DNA of 64,000 nucleotides from Clostridia bacterium (GTDB lineage: Bacteria > Bacillota > Clostridia > Lutisporales > Lutisporaceae), in the NCBI GenBank assembly GCA_029256325.1, contig JAQSYD010000006.1:1-64000 (forward strand), given 5' to 3'. Below are positions 6,056 to 15,383 of this stretch, in pieces. Below the pieces are notes generated by a model, which ran no database searches, was not told the DNA's origin, and was given only the letters and a program-made list of their open reading frames with translations. Numbering within the stretch: position 1 is the stretch's first letter; each line of letters starts with the position of its first letter. The position numbers and the translations under genes are program-made.

Positions 6056-6730
6056 ATGATCGAAGCAAAAGGTGTTTGCTTACAGTATCCCGATGGTACA
6101 ATGGCGTTAAAAAATATTGATCTGCAAATTGTACCTGGTGATATGTTATACATTACCGGACCTAGCGGCTCCGGGAAAACCAGTCTCTTAAAGCTTTTGA
6201 TGGGGATGGAATATCCGACGGAAGGTACATTAAGGGTGCTGGGTCAACCAATCGCAAAGGGACAGGACAAGGGGATAAGGCATCTCAGAATGGCTATGGG
6301 ACCTGTTTTCCAGGAGTTTAGGCTAATAAAAGGGCGAACTGCCTTGGAAAATGTTATGCTGGGTATGCGTTTTTTAAACACAACTCATGGGCACTTAAAG
6401 GAAGCTGCAATCCATACCCTTGCAAGGGTGGGTTTAGAGCATAAGGCATTTTCATTGGTGGAGAACCTATCCTGGGGAGAGTGTCAACGTGTTGCAATCG
6501 CTCGAGCGGTAGTAAGGAAGCCTGCAATTATTGTGGCAGATGAACCTACCGGCAATTTGGATAAGCACAATGCTTTAAATATATTAGCGCTTTTGAGCTC
6601 CTTTAGAGACAAAAGTACGGCAGTTATTATTACCACCCATGCAACTCACTTAATCGAAGGTGAAGAGGATGTGAAGCATATAAGAATGGACAATGGAAAT
6701 ATCCATTGGGAAAGGCCGAGGATGACTTAA
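6056..6730 (+). CDS. ftsE: FtsE-like ABC transporter ATPase
   Basis: Walker A GPSGSGKTS, Walker B IIVADEPTGNLD; followed by FtsX-like gene. Confidence 0.85.
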   Translation: MIEAKGVCLQYPDGTMALKNIDLQIVPGDMLYITGPSGSGKTSLLKLLMGMEYPTEGTLRVLGQPIAKGQDKGIRHLRMAMGPVFQEFRLIKGRTALENVMLGMRFLNTTHGHLKEAAIHTLARVGLEHKAFSLVENLSWGECQRVAIARAVVRKPAIIVADEPTGNLDKHNALNILALLSSFRDKSTAVIITTHATHLIEGEEDVKHIRMDNGNIHWERPRMT

Positions 6731-7615
6731 ATGAAGAATTTTATCTATAATATTGGCTACTTTCTAAAAGAGACGAAAACAATCCTGCAATTAAATGCAG
6801 TATCAAACATTTTTTCTCTATTGAGTACAGGTCTTATATTTTTTATTCTTGCCATGGTTATTTCGGGCTGGTGGGTGAGCAGTCAAATTGTAGAAGCCAT
6901 CGAAGAGGAAGCAGAAATAAGCGTCTATTATGAGGAAAGCATGGACAATTATGAGGTTACCCAATTGATGGAAAGACTTAGAATTGTCAAGGGTGTTGTA
7001 GAAGTACGCTTGGTTGAGGAAGGTGAGGCCTATAAGCGGATGGAGGATATTCTAGGAAAAGATGCCGGTGTTTTGACTTATTTAGAGGACAATCCTTTTA
7101 ATTCATTTATTGAGGTGAAAATCAATATGGAAGAAATGAACTTTGTCTTAGGAAAGATAAGACTTGTGACAGGTGTTGATTATATTAGGGATAACCAGGA
7201 GGTTTTAAAGAGAATTGAAAATATCTCACAGATATTGAAGCTCCTTGGAACCTTGATTATCACAGCAGTTGGCATATCTACTTTGGTCATTATAGGACAC
7301 ATCATCAGACTGGGAATATACAATAACAGAGAGCAGATCAATACGCTCAGGCTGCTGGGTGCACATGAACTGTTTATTGCATTTCCATTTTTGCTGGTGG
7401 GAATGATATTAACTCTAGGAGGCGGCGTATTGGCATCTGCTTTAGCGGCAGCTGCTATAAAATATATCTATGCCCAGATGGCAGGACCCCTTCCTTTCAT
7501 TCCATTACCGCCGCAAGAAACTCTCGTATCGGGTATCGTCATAATTGTTATTTTTCTAAGCGCAGTTCTTGGTATTGTCGGTAGTGTTTTTGGGCTGTCA
7601 TCCGCAAAAAAATGA
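6731..7615 (+). CDS. ftsX: FtsX-like cell-division permease
   Basis: 4-TM FtsX-type topology, directly abuts FtsE. Confidence 0.83.
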   Translation: MKNFIYNIGYFLKETKTILQLNAVSNIFSLLSTGLIFFILAMVISGWWVSSQIVEAIEEEAEISVYYEESMDNYEVTQLMERLRIVKGVVEVRLVEEGEAYKRMEDILGKDAGVLTYLEDNPFNSFIEVKINMEEMNFVLGKIRLVTGVDYIRDNQEVLKRIENISQILKLLGTLIITAVGISTLVIIGHIIRLGIYNNREQINTLRLLGAHELFIAFPFLLVGMILTLGGGVLASALAAAAIKYIYAQMAGPLPFIPLPPQETLVSGIVIIVIFLSAVLGIVGSVFGLSSAKK

Positions 7616-7679
7616 TTAAGTCTAGCTTATAGCTTCTAAGAAATTCAAAATATGAAAACAGACAAAAAGGGTGATTAAT

Positions 7680-8396
7680 TTGAAAATGAATGGCAGAATA
7701 GAAAAGATGATCAATATCTCGGATGAAGATAAGCATTGTATGTATGAAATTATGGCAGCATATTATGATGATGTTGAAAAGACTGTGTTTTTAGAGGATA
7801 TGGCAGAAAAGGATTGGTGTATTCTGTTATGCGATGAGAAGGGTATTATCAGAGGCTTTTCGACGCAAATGCTTTTGGAGTTTCAGGTGGATGGTATCAA
7901 GGTCAATGGTGTGTTTTCGGGGGATACCATTATTCAAAAAGAATATTGGGGGAATCTGGAGCTGGCGAGAACCTTTTTGAAGTTTTTTGTTGAATTCGGA
8001 AAAAACTATCCGGTGTTCTATTGGTTTCTAATATCGAAAGGCTACAAGACCTATAAGATGCTTCCCGTTTATTTTAATAGCTATTATCCGCGCTATGGCA
8101 TGGCTACACCACAATTTGAAAAGTCTGTCATGGATGCATTTGGCCAATTCAAATATCCTGGCCAATATGATTCTGATACAGGGGTGATACATTATCATAA
8201 TATCAAGGACAAGCTGAAAAAAGGAGTGGCTGACATTGATGAAAAAAGGCTGCGTGATAAACATATTGAATTTTTTAATCAAATAAATCCCAATCACATC
8301 AACGGAGATGATTTGGTTTGTATGACTGGTATTTCTATAGAGAACCTAAGAAGCTGCGGAAAGAAATTCTTTGGGGAGATTCCTAAAGATGTTTAA
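7680..8396 (+). CDS. GNAT-like acyltransferase family protein (tentative)
   Basis: N-terminal GNAT-like pattern DWCILLCDEKGIIRGFSTQML...; TTG/ATG start 7680/7686; first gene of the GH3 operon. Confidence 0.45.
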   Translation: MKMNGRIEKMINISDEDKHCMYEIMAAYYDDVEKTVFLEDMAEKDWCILLCDEKGIIRGFSTQMLLEFQVDGIKVNGVFSGDTIIQKEYWGNLELARTFLKFFVEFGKNYPVFYWFLISKGYKTYKMLPVYFNSYYPRYGMATPQFEKSVMDAFGQFKYPGQYDSDTGVIHYHNIKDKLKKGVADIDEKRLRDKHIEFFNQINPNHINGDDLVCMTGISIENLRSCGKKFFGEIPKDV

Positions 8397-10011
8397 CAGA
8401 ATGCTGTGCTATTTAATGAATACATTTTGCACCATGATGTATAAAAGAGAGTATGGAAGCTTCGCAAATATAAGGGACGCATCAGAAGTGCAAAGGCAGC
8501 TTCTGCTTAGCTTATTACATAGCAACCGGAATACGCTTTATGGAGAAAGGTATGCCTTTGATAAGATCAAATCCATCAAGGAATACCAATGCAGCGTACC
8601 TATAACGACATATGAGGATTATAGCTGGTATATAGAAGAAATTAAAGCGGGCAGAAAAAATATATTAACTGAGGATGAAGTGATGATGCTTGAGTTATCA
8701 AGCGGCTCCACTTCGGCTTCCAAGTATATCCCCTATACAAAGACATTAAAGCTTCAGTTTCAAAAAGGGTTAAAACCCTGGGTATATAACTTGTTTAGCA
8801 GCTATGAAGGTATCAAGCATGGGCAGGCTTATTGGTCAATCACACCGGCTGTTCATCAGAAGCAATATACAGAGGGCGGTCTTCCTATAGGCTTTGAGGA
8901 AGATTCAGAGTATTTTGGATGGATGGAAAAGTATTTATTCAGATATCTATTTGCCGTTCCTTCTGAAATAAGCAAAGTAAGAGATATGGAGAACTTTAAA
9001 TATTTAACAGCTCTTTTTTTATTGAATGCAAGAAAGCTGACCTTTATATCAGTATGGAATCCTACTTATCTCATGTTGATTATTCAAGCTATTGAACAAT
9101 ATGGCGATAGGCTGGTAGATAATTTAAGAAAAGGCGTTGTTACGCCTCCCAACGTGATGGAGGAGGATGTCAGGAAGCTTTTCAAGTTAAGCAGAAATGA
9201 AAAGAGGGCCCTTGAAATAGAAGAGAATCTAAAAGAGAAAAGACTTGATATGCTCTGGCCCAATCTAAAGCTTATCAGCTGCTGGACAGACGGCAACTCA
9301 GAAGCTTATGCACATTTGTTGAGAGAGCTTTTTCCCAAGGTAGAAATGCAGGGAAAGGGGCTTATTGCAACAGAGGCTTTTGTCTCCTTTCCCTTGAAAG
9401 GAGAATCGGGCGCGAGATTATCACTGCATTCTCATTTTTTTGAGTTTATTTCAATGTCTGATGAAAAAATTTATTTAGCTCATGAGCTGCGGGTGGGAGA
9501 GACATACTGTCTGGTGGTTACAACAGGGGGAGGGCTTTATCGATATAACCTACAGGATCTGGTGCTTGTTACCGGCTTCAGCGGTGCTTTTCCCAGAGTA
9601 AGGTTTATAGGTAAGAAGGACAAGGTATCAGACATTTTTGGAGAGAAATTGAATGAATATCATGTTAAGAAGACTATAGAAGCTCTTTTTCAGCAGTATG
9701 GCATAAAACCGGAGTTTTATATGTTGGCACCAAGCGGGGATAGATATGTTCTTTTCATAGATAGGATTGGAGCCGCGGATGCTTTGGCGCAAAAGCTTGA
9801 TCAAGGGCTTAGGGAAAATTTCCACTATGATTACTGCAGAAGGCTGGGTCAGCTGCAGGAAGCTCAGATTTTTTTAACGGAAGAAAAACCCTATGAAAGC
9901 TTTGTTGAAGAATGTGCTAAGCGTGGCCAGCGGCTGGGTGATATAAAGCCGGCTGTATTGGACCTGCGCCAAGGCTGGGAAAATGTATTTAAAGGGAGAA
10001 CTATTGTATGA
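8389..10011 (+). CDS. GH3 auxin-responsive-promoter family acyl-acid amido synthetase
   Basis: ELSSGSTSASKYIPYT nucleotide-binding motif, GGGLYRYNLQDLVLVTGF; ATG overlaps upstream stop. Confidence 0.85.
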   Translation: MFNRMLCYLMNTFCTMMYKREYGSFANIRDASEVQRQLLLSLLHSNRNTLYGERYAFDKIKSIKEYQCSVPITTYEDYSWYIEEIKAGRKNILTEDEVMMLELSSGSTSASKYIPYTKTLKLQFQKGLKPWVYNLFSSYEGIKHGQAYWSITPAVHQKQYTEGGLPIGFEEDSEYFGWMEKYLFRYLFAVPSEISKVRDMENFKYLTALFLLNARKLTFISVWNPTYLMLIIQAIEQYGDRLVDNLRKGVVTPPNVMEEDVRKLFKLSRNEKRALEIEENLKEKRLDMLWPNLKLISCWTDGNSEAYAHLLRELFPKVEMQGKGLIATEAFVSFPLKGESGARLSLHSHFFEFISMSDEKIYLAHELRVGETYCLVVTTGGGLYRYNLQDLVLVTGFSGAFPRVRFIGKKDKVSDIFGEKLNEYHVKKTIEALFQQYGIKPEFYMLAPSGDRYVLFIDRIGAADALAQKLDQGLRENFHYDYCRRLGQLQEAQIFLTEEKPYESFVEECAKRGQRLGDIKPAVLDLRQGWENVFKGRTIV

Positions 10012-11354
10012 AAATAGCTTTACTGGCTCCTGCCGGGGCAATGCATCGTTATAGCGGCAGCTTTAAGAAGTCCTTGCACTATGCACCCTTGACGCTTACT
10101 ACACTGGCAGCCCTGGTGCCACAGTCCCTTCATGCAGAAATAGCGATTTATGATGAGACAGCAGGCTATATCCCTTTGGATTTGAAGGCTGATATCGTGT
10201 GTATAACCTGTATAACGGGCACCAGTCAGCGGGTTTATAGATATGCTGATTATTACAGAAGCAAGGGTATGACGGTCGTATTGGGAGGCGTTCATCCAAC
10301 CTTAATGCCAGACGAAGCGGGGCAACATGCAGACAGTGTTGTCATTGGATTCGCCGAGCAAACCTTTCCGCAGCTGCTGATGGATTTTAAAAATGGAGAA
10401 TTGAAAAGCAGATATATGCAAAACAGGGATTATACCATAGCCGGCAAGCCAATTCCCAGAAGAGAACTTCTGGATAAGTCAAAGTACATTACTTTGAATT
10501 CTGTAGAAGCAGTTCGAGGATGTTCCTTGCCTTGTACCTTCTGTGCTTATCCGGCTGCTTTTGGTAAAGCCATATATAAAAGACCTGTAAATGAGGTCGT
10601 GGCAGAGATTGAGATGCTGAATTCAAAGGAGATTTTATTTCCTGACGTAAATCTGATTGCCGATCGAGCCTATGCTATTGAACTGTTTACAGCGATGATA
10701 CCGCTCAAAAAAATGTGGTTTGGATTGGTAACATCTTCTGTGGGTATTGACGATGAATTAATAAACCTGTTTCGTAGGAGCAGATGCAAGGGCCTGCTCA
10801 TAGGCTTTGAATCCATAAGTCAGTCTTCGCAAAAGTTTATTCATAAGGGCATCAATCATGTTTTGGAATACAGTGAGCTGATGAAGAGGCTTCATGACGC
10901 AGGCATTCTTGTGCAAGGCTGTTTTGCATTTGGCAGTGACGAGGAAGACAAAAGCGTATTTGAGGCTACCGTAGAGATGGTTATTAAAGCAAAAATTGAT
11001 TTGCCCAGATATTCAATACTTACGCCATTTCCAAGAACTCAACTATATCAGCAATTAGAGGAACAAAATAGAATCATAGAAAGGGATTGGTCCCTTTATG
11101 ATGTTGAGCATTGTGTATTTCAACCGGCACAAATGACTCCCTTGGAGCTGGAGAAAGGAATTGAATGGGCATGGCGGGAAACCTATACATACAAATCTAT
11201 TTTTAAGCGCTTGGCTCCTTTTCATATTTCTCCCTTTATCGCTTCTATTGTAAATATTGGATATAAGAATTACGCAGACAAGTTTACCAACTTTAGAAAA
11301 GAAGTCATGATTGACAACTCTGATATACCGGAAGTAGGGAGGTTGAAGGAGTAA
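10008..11354 (+). CDS. B12-binding-domain radical SAM protein
   Basis: VVLGGVHPTLMPDEA cobalamin-domain pattern; CSLPCTFCAYP (CxxxCxxC) cluster motif; overlaps GH3 stop by 4 nt. Confidence 0.9.
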   Translation: MKIALLAPAGAMHRYSGSFKKSLHYAPLTLTTLAALVPQSLHAEIAIYDETAGYIPLDLKADIVCITCITGTSQRVYRYADYYRSKGMTVVLGGVHPTLMPDEAGQHADSVVIGFAEQTFPQLLMDFKNGELKSRYMQNRDYTIAGKPIPRRELLDKSKYITLNSVEAVRGCSLPCTFCAYPAAFGKAIYKRPVNEVVAEIEMLNSKEILFPDVNLIADRAYAIELFTAMIPLKKMWFGLVTSSVGIDDELINLFRRSRCKGLLIGFESISQSSQKFIHKGINHVLEYSELMKRLHDAGILVQGCFAFGSDEEDKSVFEATVEMVIKAKIDLPRYSILTPFPRTQLYQQLEEQNRIIERDWSLYDVEHCVFQPAQMTPLELEKGIEWAWRETYTYKSIFKRLAPFHISPFIASIVNIGYKNYADKFTNFRKEVMIDNSDIPEVGRLKE

Positions 11355-11355
11355 T

Positions 11356-12690
11356 ATGAAAATTACTTTTGTCTATCCGGCAATAGGAAAGAAAGGTGGA
11401 GAAAAATACATATACACATGGAAGATGGAACCCCTTACTATTGCCATGCTGAAGGCATTGACGCCGCAATCTGTTGAGACTGAGTTCTTTGATGACCGTA
11501 TTGAGTTAATAAACTATGAAATAAAAACAGATTTGGTTGTCATTACCGTTGAGACCTATACAGCAAAAAGAAGCTATTCTATTGCATCGGAATTTATGAA
11601 ACGCGGGATTAAGGTTATATTGGGAGGCTATCATGTCACGCTGCTGCCGGAAGAAGCAAAGCAATATGCTGACTGCATTGTAACGGGCAATGCAGAAGGT
11701 GTATGGAGTGAAATGCTAAAGGACTTCTCTAATCATCAATTAAAACCGCGATATAGCGGCCATACAGGTTTTGATTTCATTCGGCCTGATAAAACCATTT
11801 TTCAAGGGAAAAAATATGTGCCTGTAACCCTTGTTGAAATAGGAAGAGGCTGTTGTCATAATTGCGAATTTTGTGCAATTACATCGTATTATCATGGAAA
11901 ATACCACTGCAGAAGAAGTGAGGATATTATTGAAGATCTTAAAGAATCAAAGCATCGATATAGTTTCTTTGTGGATGATAACCTTATTGCAGATAAAAAC
12001 AATGCCAGCAGGCTCTTTCAAGCTGTACAGCCCTATAAAAAGAAATGGGCAGGACAGGGCACCCTTGCTATGGCAAAGGATAAAGAGTTCTTAAGGAACA
12101 TGAAAAAAAGCGGCTGCGATATCATGCTGATAGGCTTTGAATCCTTGGAGGAGCAAAGTCTGGTGCAGATGAATAAGACCTGGAGCATGACATTGGGAGA
12201 GCGAGATGAGCTTGTAGAAAGAATACACGATGCCGGAATCAGCATATATGCGACTTTTGTGTTCGGCTTTGATGGTGATACCAAAGAGACCTTTGACAAG
12301 ACGTTGGAATTTGCAAGAAAGCATAAGTTTTTTACTGCAGCCTTTAATCATTTATTGCCCTTTCCGGGAACACCCCTTTATGAGCGCTTGAAGGCAGAAG
12401 ACAGGTTGATATATGATCAATGGTGGCTGGAAGATAACTACAATTACGGAGAGCTGGCGTTTAAGCCTAAGAATATGTCGCCGGAAGAGCTGGCTGCATT
12501 ATGCAGATGGGCTAGGAAGGAGTATGCAAACCTGCATACCGTTTCCGGAAGGGGCTTTAGCCTGATGAAAAGAGATTTTAATCCATTTCTTTGGGGCATG
12601 TATTGGGCGATGAACCTAAGGCTGGGGGAAGAAATAGATGAGAAGTTGAATATACCTATAGGGAGGGGATTAGATGAGCTTCCAAAATAG
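11356..12690 (+). CDS. second B12-binding-domain radical SAM protein
   Basis: VILGGYHVTLLPEEA and CCHNCEFCAIT (CxxxCxxC). Confidence 0.9.
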   Translation: MKITFVYPAIGKKGGEKYIYTWKMEPLTIAMLKALTPQSVETEFFDDRIELINYEIKTDLVVITVETYTAKRSYSIASEFMKRGIKVILGGYHVTLLPEEAKQYADCIVTGNAEGVWSEMLKDFSNHQLKPRYSGHTGFDFIRPDKTIFQGKKYVPVTLVEIGRGCCHNCEFCAITSYYHGKYHCRRSEDIIEDLKESKHRYSFFVDDNLIADKNNASRLFQAVQPYKKKWAGQGTLAMAKDKEFLRNMKKSGCDIMLIGFESLEEQSLVQMNKTWSMTLGERDELVERIHDAGISIYATFVFGFDGDTKETFDKTLEFARKHKFFTAAFNHLLPFPGTPLYERLKAEDRLIYDQWWLEDNYNYGELAFKPKNMSPEELAALCRWARKEYANLHTVSGRGFSLMKRDFNPFLWGMYWAMNLRLGEEIDEKLNIPIGRGLDELPK

Positions 12691-13759
12691 TCGGTTTGTG
12701 CTGGAAGTCGCGAAACCCCATGATAGCAGTGAAATCCTTGAAGTTATCGAAAGCGGAGATTTTCAGGGAGATATCTCGATTATGTACACCAAACAGCCAG
12801 ATCCATATCTGTCATTGCAGGCTGAGGGGGAGAAGGTCATTATTGTGGTGTGCAGAGATACACAGAACGGTAAACTGTGTGGCGTCGGCAGCTGTGCAGT
12901 GAGAAGGGTGTATGTGGATGGAAGGATTTTGAGGGCCGGCTATCTGATGGGCTTAAGGATAAAGCCGGAATATCAAAAGCATCTGCCAATATTGCTTAAA
13001 GCTTATGCATTTATTCATGAATGCACCAAGGACGAGGTGGATCTATACTATACGACAATTTTACAATCCAATCACGAGGCTCAAAAGATGCTTGAGAAGA
13101 AGCGTAAGTCAATGCCCAGCTATAATCACATCGGCGATTACTGTGTCTATACCTTAAGAACCGGTGGACAAATGAAAGAATCAATCTATTCCTTTGAAAA
13201 AGGCGGGGATATGGAGGAAATCATTAGCTTTGTTCAAAGAGAGGGCAAACAGTACGATTTTTATCCTGTAATGGATGCAAAGCGTATGGAGAAAGATTTT
13301 CATGGACTAGAGAAAACGGATTTCTATACGTTGAAGGATTCGCAGGGCGAAATTATAGCTTCAGCTGCTGCGTGGGATCAACAAAAATACAAACAGTACA
13401 TTATTACAGGATATAAGGGTGTCTATAAAACCTTATCCAAGCTCCCGGGGCTATTAAGGTTTGTGGGTTATCCACCTTTACCCCGTATTCATGAAACGGC
13501 TAACTTTTTTTCATTATCCTTGGTATGTATAAAGGATAATGACCCTGAAGTGTTCGAATATTTTATAAAGAAGGTTGCAGAAAATTCCAAGCAATATGAT
13601 TTTTTTATTGTTGGCTTCCATGAAAGTCACCCTCTGCAAGCAGTTGTGAAAAGAATGAAGCATGTTTCCTATAAAAGTAAGGTTTATATTGTAGACTGGG
13701 ATAACAGGGAGCATGTTTTAAATCATAGAAAGATCTATTTAGAATGTGGACTATTATAA
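12674..13759 (+). CDS. GNAT-family N-acetyltransferase-like protein (tandem domains likely)
   Basis: N-terminal GNAT-like ...LCGVGSCAVRRVYVDGRILRAGYLMGLRIKPEYQKH...; overlaps upstream ORF by 17 nt. Confidence 0.65.
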   Translation: MSFQNSRFVLEVAKPHDSSEILEVIESGDFQGDISIMYTKQPDPYLSLQAEGEKVIIVVCRDTQNGKLCGVGSCAVRRVYVDGRILRAGYLMGLRIKPEYQKHLPILLKAYAFIHECTKDEVDLYYTTILQSNHEAQKMLEKKRKSMPSYNHIGDYCVYTLRTGGQMKESIYSFEKGGDMEEIISFVQREGKQYDFYPVMDAKRMEKDFHGLEKTDFYTLKDSQGEIIASAAAWDQQKYKQYIITGYKGVYKTLSKLPGLLRFVGYPPLPRIHETANFFSLSLVCIKDNDPEVFEYFIKKVAENSKQYDFFIVGFHESHPLQAVVKRMKHVSYKSKVYIVDWDNREHVLNHRKIYLECGLL

Positions 13760-13760
13760 A

Positions 13761-13806
13761 AGAAGCCTCTGCGAGATTCTGTCCTGCAGAGGCTTCTATA
13801 TGGTTT
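13761..13806. terminator. bidirectional terminator between convergent genes
   Basis: AGAAGCCTCTGC ... GCAGAGGCTTCT (12 bp). Confidence 0.8.
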
Positions 13807-13817
13807 TTGGAAGGCTC

Positions 13818-15383
13818 TTAAAAGTCGTCTTTGATTAATTTTTCAAAGGTATTTACATCTCTATCATATTCTAAGGGCATTACAGCGGGACCTTCAATGA
13901 TATCTCCTTCATAGGTGAATCTGGAGCCGTGGCATGGACAGTCCCAAGACCTTTCTGCCGAGTTCCATTGCAGTTCACAGCCCATATGGGTGCATGTGGT
14001 ATTTACTAAATGCAGGACACCTTTCTCATCTCTGAAAGCACCGATCCTTTCTCCATTTCCATTAATCACTTTTCCTTCACCGGGTTTGATATCAAAATCA
14101 TTTGGCAGCGGAGAAAGCTTGCCTTTTATAAGCTCTTTGGCTACATTTATATTTTCTTTTATAAATTCTTTTGCGGATGCTGCGATGGTTTTACGTGACG
14201 GATTATAGACATCCTGATAGGGACTACTTCCCCGCACGATCAGATCGCTTAGAATCATAGCAGAAACTGTACTATTTGTCATTCCCCACTTTCCATAGCC
14301 TGTTGCCACATATAGATTAGGCGTGTCAGAGGTATAGTGGCCAATATAAGGAACATCATCCAATGTCATGCAATCCTGTGTAGACCATCTGTAAGGAATG
14401 TCTTCCACTGTAAAATGATCTTTGGAAAAGGCAATGAGTGCCTCGTAGTGTTTGGTTGTATCCTTGCCTTGACCTGTTTTATGATGCTCTCCGCCGATGA
14501 TAATAAGCTCGCCGTCATCGCTGCTTTGTGAACGCAATGATTTAGCAGGATCTTCGGCAGTAATGTACATTCCACCAGGATACTTTTCCTTAACTTTAAC
14601 CCCTAAGGCATAGGACCTTTCGATATATATTCTGGCGAAGTACATGCCATGCTTGTTATAGAAAGGATAGTGGGATGCGATAATCACTTTTTCAGCAGTA
14701 ACTTTTTTTCCATCCTTTGTTGAAATGACATAAGCACCGTTTTCTTCTATATCAATAGCTCTGGTTTGCTCGTAAATGCTGCCTCCATTCTTAATTACTT
14801 CCTTTGCAAGCTCAAGCAGATATTTTCTGGGGTGAAACTGTGCTTGATTTTCAAAGCGAAGGGCAGCTTTGATTGGGATATCAAAAGGTATTTTTTCAAC
14901 ATAAGAAGCCTTTATTCCCAGCTTGGAAGCAGCGTCCACCTCGTCTTTAATTTTCTGTACATACTGATCCTGACGCGTAAACACATAGGCTGGTTGATGC
15001 ATAAAGTCACAATCTATATGAAGCTCATTTTGGATTTTCTCTATCAAGCGGATTGCTGACTCATTTGCATCAGCATATTGCTGAGCAAACTCCATACTCA
15101 TTTTACTTTTTATTTTGCTATATATTAGTCCATGCTGTGAAGTGATTTTGGCTGTTGTATGCCCGGTGGTGCCTTGCAGGATGTGGTCAGCTTCAAGTAT
15201 TGCGACTTTTACGCCTTCTTTTGCAAGCATATAAGCACAGGAAATACCAGACATGCCACCACCAACAATTGCTACATCCACATTTATGTCTTCCGTTAGC
15301 TTAGGATAGTCCGTTGTAGGAGTCGATGCCATCCAGTAGGATTGCGGTGGTTTTATAAAGTTTTTATACTCATCTAAACTCAT
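13818..15383 (-). CDS. FAD-dependent oxidoreductase with C-terminal Rieske [2Fe-2S] domain
   Basis: VAIVGGGMSGISCAYMLAKEG dinucleotide motif; CTHMGCELQW...CPCHGSRF Rieske motif. Confidence 0.92.
   Translation of the reverse strand: MSLDEYKNFIKPPQSYWMASTPTTDYPKLTEDINVDVAIVGGGMSGISCAYMLAKEGVKVAILEADHILQGTTGHTTAKITSQHGLIYSKIKSKMSMEFAQQYADANESAIRLIEKIQNELHIDCDFMHQPAYVFTRQDQYVQKIKDEVDAASKLGIKASYVEKIPFDIPIKAALRFENQAQFHPRKYLLELAKEVIKNGGSIYEQTRAIDIEENGAYVISTKDGKKVTAEKVIIASHYPFYNKHGMYFARIYIERSYALGVKVKEKYPGGMYITAEDPAKSLRSQSSDDGELIIIGGEHHKTGQGKDTTKHYEALIAFSKDHFTVEDIPYRWSTQDCMTLDDVPYIGHYTSDTPNLYVATGYGKWGMTNSTVSAMILSDLIVRGSSPYQDVYNPSRKTIAASAKEFIKENINVAKELIKGKLSPLPNDFDIKPGEGKVINGNGERIGAFRDEKGVLHLVNTTCTHMGCELQWNSAERSWDCPCHGSRFTYEGDIIEGPAVMPLEYDRDVNTFEKLIKDDF

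Follow-up and report, generated by a model that had tools for sequence, protein, structure and literature searches.

No substrates are known for bacterial GH3 enzymes or for most radical SAM enzymes of the B12-binding type (B12-rSAM). In the case of B12-rSAM enzymes, methylation is the most commonly demonstrated activity; one enzyme, BchE, can be replaced in chlorophyll synthesis by its aerobic counterpart, the di-iron enzyme AcsF. The nearest known precedent for the locus described here is the ornithine lipid pathway OlsH/OlsI of Singulisphaera acidiphila, where the GH3 enzyme OlsH was shown experimentally to N-acylate ornithine (PMC12493201); the text of that paper mentions neither radical SAM nor GNAT proteins. 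Among bacterial GH3 enzymes, we found a demonstrated lipid role for OlsH alone.

Here we analyze an operon of five genes, denoted A to E, located in a stretch of 64,000 nucleotides from a Clostridia bacterium (contig JAQSYD010000006.1; hereafter, the window). A preliminary sequence-only reading knew of no characterised pathway with this gene set, and our literature search likewise gave no described counterpart and no paper connecting GH3 to radical SAM proteins, although subscription papers were mostly outside the search and an earlier description is possible. A paper on Acinetobacter gene clusters does not mention the GH3 operon.

Structure of the operon

All five genes are on the plus strand. 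Gene A (7671..8396) encodes a divergent protein of 241 aa with a predicted single-domain GNAT fold; its true start is uncertain, the alternative in-frame starts being GTG at 7671, TTG at 7680 and ATG at 7686. Gene B (8389..10011, start ATG 8389) encodes a GH3 acyl-acid amido synthetase of 540 aa. The next two genes encode radical SAM proteins, C (10008..11354, 448 aa), with an N-terminal domain of the B12-binding type, and its paralogue D (11356..12690, 444 aa), also with a domain of this type. The last gene, E (12674..13759, 361 aa), encodes a tandem-GNAT protein, whose predicted fold is nearest to N-myristoyltransferase. Adjacent genes overlap (A/B, by 8 nt; B/C, by 4 nt; D/E, by 17 nt) or are separated by 1 nt (C/D).

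Directly downstream of E there is a perfect hairpin of 11–12 bp with a T-rich tail on either side and a folding energy of -25.6 kcal/mol on the plus strand and -23.9 on the minus strand. By sequence and folding energy this is a bidirectional intrinsic terminator (13760..13808) forming the end of the operon; the consensus terminator scan overlooked it solely owing to a loop longer than 8 nt. Thus, the five ORFs, their coupling and positions, as well as the terminator closing the operon, all of them proposed in the sequence-only reading, agree with the ORF coordinates and junctions and with the fold energies of the two strands.

The hairpin divides E from a convergent gene (13818-15383, minus strand), which encodes an FAD oxidoreductase of the DAO type carrying a Rieske domain at its C-terminus and was not seen in the other clusters. 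Upstream of the operon there are ftsE-ftsX-like genes (6056-7615). In GC content (36.5-42%), the operon does not stand out from the surrounding DNA, and hence the composition carries no sign of recent transfer. No Rfam family was found in the window, and thus, by that test, no cobalamin riboswitch.

Protein families

In B, all three GH3 domains score above the cut-offs (PF03321, 3.3e-58; GH3_M, 5e-19; GH3_C, 7e-8). Its nucleotide motifs I–III (SSGSTSASK, LIATE and GLYRYNLQD) match those given for JAR1 and OlsH (PMC12493201), and the key residues are invariant in 12 relatives. The relatives of B in PDB are auxin, jasmonate and benzoate ligases. In the GH3 tree, the enzymes from loci with this gene set, below called cassettes, group in a single clade (support 100/99), separately from the remaining Clostridial GH3s; the GH3 of one short contig (L038), not labelled as a cassette one, also falls within this clade. 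The cassette GH3s match the OlsH model weakly (12/12 members), and the identification of B as the OlsH lyso-ornithine lipid synthetase was rejected, the score being 61.7 bits against the NCBIfam equivalog cut-off of 620.

The host genome contains a second GH3 gene (L002:1405-2982, G000:C103), very divergent and unrelated to the cassette one, which directly follows a gene for an isoprenylcysteine-methyltransferase-like protein. Other Clostridia have tandem GH3 pairs of a different clade (L009, L010, L014, L015, L022 and loci overlapping with these), with A, C, D and E not present in the short stretches examined.

C and D are paralogues (34% identity) that form separate orthogroups in the rSAM protein tree. 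Both match PF04055 and carry the CX3CX2C motif, kept in all relatives (CSLPCTFC in C and CCHNCEFC in D). The Pfam score of the B12-binding domain (PF02310) is 41.7 in C, exceeding the curated cut-off of 32.1, and 28.5 in D, under this cut-off; given the clear paralogy of the two proteins, we count D as also having a putative N-terminal domain of the B12-binding fold. The base-off cobalamin motif DxHxxG occurs in neither protein, though its absence does not exclude binding. With this motif missing and D below the cut-off, C and D are putative users of cobalamin, assigned to the B12-binding type by sequence. The host genome carries CbiC, a gene of the cobalamin pathway, and encodes no further C/D-like proteins. 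In NCBIfam, C and D come closest to BchE and HpnJ; both identities were rejected, as the scores (82-96 bits) do not reach the equivalog cut-offs (481-578).

For the flanking proteins, the domain databases give little: A has no match in Pfam or NCBIfam, and for E the sole domain call is a weak GNAT match in Pfam. The AF2 model of A (pLDDT 90.9) is a single GNAT domain, nearest by Foldseek to the AAC(2')/Eis GNATs (E-value 1e-6). The model of E (pLDDT 88.9, pTM 0.88) is a tandem GNAT; its best Foldseek matches are N-myristoyltransferases (E-value 5.5e-13, TM about 0.6), and the tandem GNAT MAB_4324 is also high among the matches. At a TM of about 0.6, this likeness may reflect the tandem-GNAT architecture only. 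The canonical CoA pyrophosphate loop Q/RxxGxG/A has no conserved instance in A or E (23 sequences), and hence the use of acyl-CoA is not assured. We also considered A as a mere half of E, and rejected this option, since the profile comparison gives a probability of 27%.

Hence, two functional proposals of the sequence-only reading stand at the level of prediction: the GNAT-like nature of the flanking proteins agrees with the fold predicted for both, and the adenylating activity of GH3 is consistent with the retention of all three adenylation motifs.

Conservation and distribution

All five genes occur together in 13 loci beyond the window (14 in total), from Bacillota, Elusimicrobiota, Synergistota and Planctomycetota and on an IncF plasmid of Citrobacter; six further loci are ended by contig edges or are too short for judgement. 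The scan of genome contigs for GH3 yielded 13 loci, nine of them complete (Clostridiales, other Bacillota, Anaerotalea, Elusimicrobiota, Synergistaceae, Sedimentisphaerales and one unassigned bacterium). Of the remaining four, three are cut at contig ends, and the fourth is the 3.4-kb contig L038, which contains a D-like gene, GH3 and a partial C, and no A; in all other cassettes with a readable flank, a homologue of A adjoins GH3. Searches in genomes added three complete copies (L050, L051, L060) and two partial ones (L049, L061). The fully sequenced IncF plasmid of Citrobacter portucalensis has A, GH3, two rSAM genes and E first, followed by two more rSAM genes, PAP2, a hypothetical protein, another rSAM and a fatty acid desaturase; megablast found no copies of this cluster in E. 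coli.

The genes of the complete sets are arranged in at least two ways, A-B-C-D-E and C-D-E-A-B. Identity to the nearest relatives is 61-75% for C and D and 33-54% for A, B and E. Azospirillum replicons, where the plasmid search found no GH3, encode an A-like protein (L055:9626-10774; 22% identity).

None of the 21 genomes of the same genus or family carries A, and an inherited genus trait was rejected on this ground. In the sample of the phylum, A was found in four of 300 genomes, including the window's own; among the class genomes with a GH3 match (n = 15, again including the window's own), the cassette type is present in just one more, G159. Contamination of metagenome-assembled genomes cannot explain the occurrence in an isolate (Anaerotalea) and in a closed plasmid (Citrobacter). 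The set is absent in near kin and kept in distant phyla, a pattern that suggests mobility and not an artefact; the cassette is patchily distributed and probably mobile. The expectation that GH3 and two B12-binding rSAM genes recur as a neighbourhood was borne out, as they form a dedicated conserved unit; conservation in relatives, which the sequence-only reading had made decisive, is lacking in the near ones, but holds across distant phyla.

Additional modules and clusters without radical SAM genes

Besides C and D, the rSAM tree contains three additional orthogroups, F (C-like), G and H (both D-like). Orthogroup F is represented in L042, L049 and Citrobacter. G and H are never found apart: each of the four loci with either of them has both (L036, L040, L051 and L052, the latter from Citrobacter), and this constant pairing suggests a two-enzyme step. 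SPASM radical SAM genes adjoin the cassette in L033, L043 and L049 (in L043, identified solely by similarity to the L049 protein), and a membrane protein family adjoins L036 and L040.

Searches with the A, GH3 and E profiles additionally recover triads without rSAM genes in Acinetobacter and Burkholderia. The cluster of Acinetobacter baumannii consists of HlyD, EmrB, A, GH3, TolC and E, with an amidase upstream; that of Burkholderia arboris, of A, E, a hydrolase, AurF-like Metal_hydrol, a desaturase, GH3, a Rieske oxygenase and a PAP2-desaturase fusion. As A, GH3 and E are together also in the absence of rSAM genes, we take the triad to be the core, and the rSAM enzymes, a tailoring layer. Thus, the five-gene set noticed initially is real, but the system is broader: some clusters have additional rSAM modules, and in aerobic Pseudomonadota there is a form with no rSAM genes. 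One of the Acinetobacter loci (L059, CAKLQF020000015.1) is named 'Acinetobacter phage MD-2021a' and contains bacterial housekeeping genes along with the GH3 operon; the records under this name are apparently contigs of the A. baumannii chromosome rather than phage.

Proposed pathway and alternatives

We read the operon as a horizontally spread biosynthetic cassette for a small molecule of the N-acyl-amide type or an amide lipid, and give this reading as a whole about an even chance of being correct. GH3 (B) would adenylate a carboxylic acid and then couple it to an amine, yielding an amide. A and E would be responsible for other acyl transfer, and the acyl group handled by E is probably a long-chain one. 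C and D, being of the BchE/HpnJ-like kind, would tailor the carbon skeleton anaerobically, most likely by oxidation, desaturation or cyclisation, and in related clusters the pathway could be extended by additional B12-rSAM or SPASM-rSAM enzymes. The amide reading draws on the unit retained in 14 loci, the intact GH3 motifs, the persistence of the triad, the N-myristoyltransferase-like E and CbiC of the host; we infer the amide product, the roles of A and E, the tailoring chemistry and the order of steps, the latter of which cannot be read from sequence.

C and D could instead be cobalamin-dependent C-methyltransferases that methylate unactivated carbons in either the acyl or the amine moiety, with the remaining pathway unchanged. 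This is the activity demonstrated most often for B12-rSAM enzymes, the profile matches of C and D include P- and C-methyltransferases, TsrM, CysS and TokK are, along with AprD4, among their solved relatives, and the repeated B12-rSAM paralogues would fit multiple methylations. However, BchE and HpnJ, the best relatives, are not simple methylases, and AprD4, the best PDB match of C, is annotated as an oxidoreductase. Moreover, the genes examined in the rSAM-free form from Burkholderia include oxidative enzymes and none that we recognised as a methyltransferase. Oxygen-dependent enzymes in place of B12-rSAMs, as in the case of BchE and AcsF, favour oxidative over methylating chemistry, although this swap of aerobic for anaerobic enzymes is only a correlation provided by one Burkholderia cluster, as Acinetobacter has neither layer, and Citrobacter, both. 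On balance, we regard methylation as possible, but rather unlikely.

An equally doubtful alternative is a membrane amino lipid made by an OlsH/OlsI-like GH3 route, with E as the second acyltransferase and C and D modifying the fatty chain of a structural lipid, and not of a metabolite for secretion. The N-acylation of ornithine with fatty acids by a bacterial GH3, the N-myristoyltransferase-like E, and PAP2 and the desaturase next to the Citrobacter cassette agree with it; vice versa, B scores far below the OlsH cut-off, the five genes include no OlsI partner of the alpha/beta-hydrolase type, and the patchy spread, together with the EmrAB/TolC-type export genes of Acinetobacter, fits a specialised metabolite better.

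If GH3 and the GNATs conjugated or detoxified a foreign acid, as plant GH3s do with auxin, and the rSAM enzymes degraded or modified the same acid, the ligases among the PDB relatives of B and the amidase upstream of the Acinetobacter cluster would be accounted for. Still, there is no recurrence of genes for catabolism or uptake, the amidase is missing from other clusters, and a constant gene set including several B12-rSAM paralogues is characteristic of synthesis rather than detoxification, making this variant very improbable. Finally, the adjacency of five genes with separate functions by chance, to which the close relatives without the set might point, is refuted almost with certainty by the conservation of the same set in the other 13 loci, in several phyla and at least two orders, with coupled frames. 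A defence system was also considered and rejected, there being no PADLOC match of note.

Returning to the biosynthetic cassette, we tentatively suggest, with slightly less than even confidence in the claim taken jointly, a modular class of clusters with a core free of NRPS, PKS and RiPP genes. In this class, a fixed triad A-GH3-E would build an amide scaffold, and exchangeable oxidative modules, that is, stacks of B12- and SPASM-rSAM enzymes in anaerobes and Rieske or di-iron enzymes in aerobes, would tailor it, the clusters having moved between phyla and onto plasmids.

Comparison with known systems

The cassette joins five uncharacterised families in a compact form, which makes all five testable at once, and its carriers include the cultured Anaerotalea alkaliphila and the plasmid-borne form of Citrobacter. 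Its product could be a new amide metabolite or lipid of anaerobes, and the cassette itself could be a new case of radical SAM chemistry replacing oxygen-dependent tailoring.

C and D share the two-domain architecture and the CX3CX2C motif with BchE and HpnJ, but score far below the cut-offs of these families and have a different gene context. E resembles N-myristoyltransferase and tandem GNAT acyltransferases in its predicted tandem GNAT fold; the identity is about 10-12%, the canonical CoA loop is lacking in E, and a protein N-terminus is improbable as its substrate. With the plant GH3 enzymes JAR1 and GH3.12, B has in common the three-domain layout and all three nucleotide motifs, although it belongs to a bacterial operon and the sequence relation is remote (E-value about 1e-32 by profile). 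As for OlsH/OlsI, the five-gene set does not include the OlsI hydrolase, and the OlsH pathway, the B12-rSAM and GNAT partners; however, both feature a bacterial GH3 in an operon with an acyltransferase, and the likeness would extend to the ATP-dependent N-acylation of an amino acid (PMC12493201).
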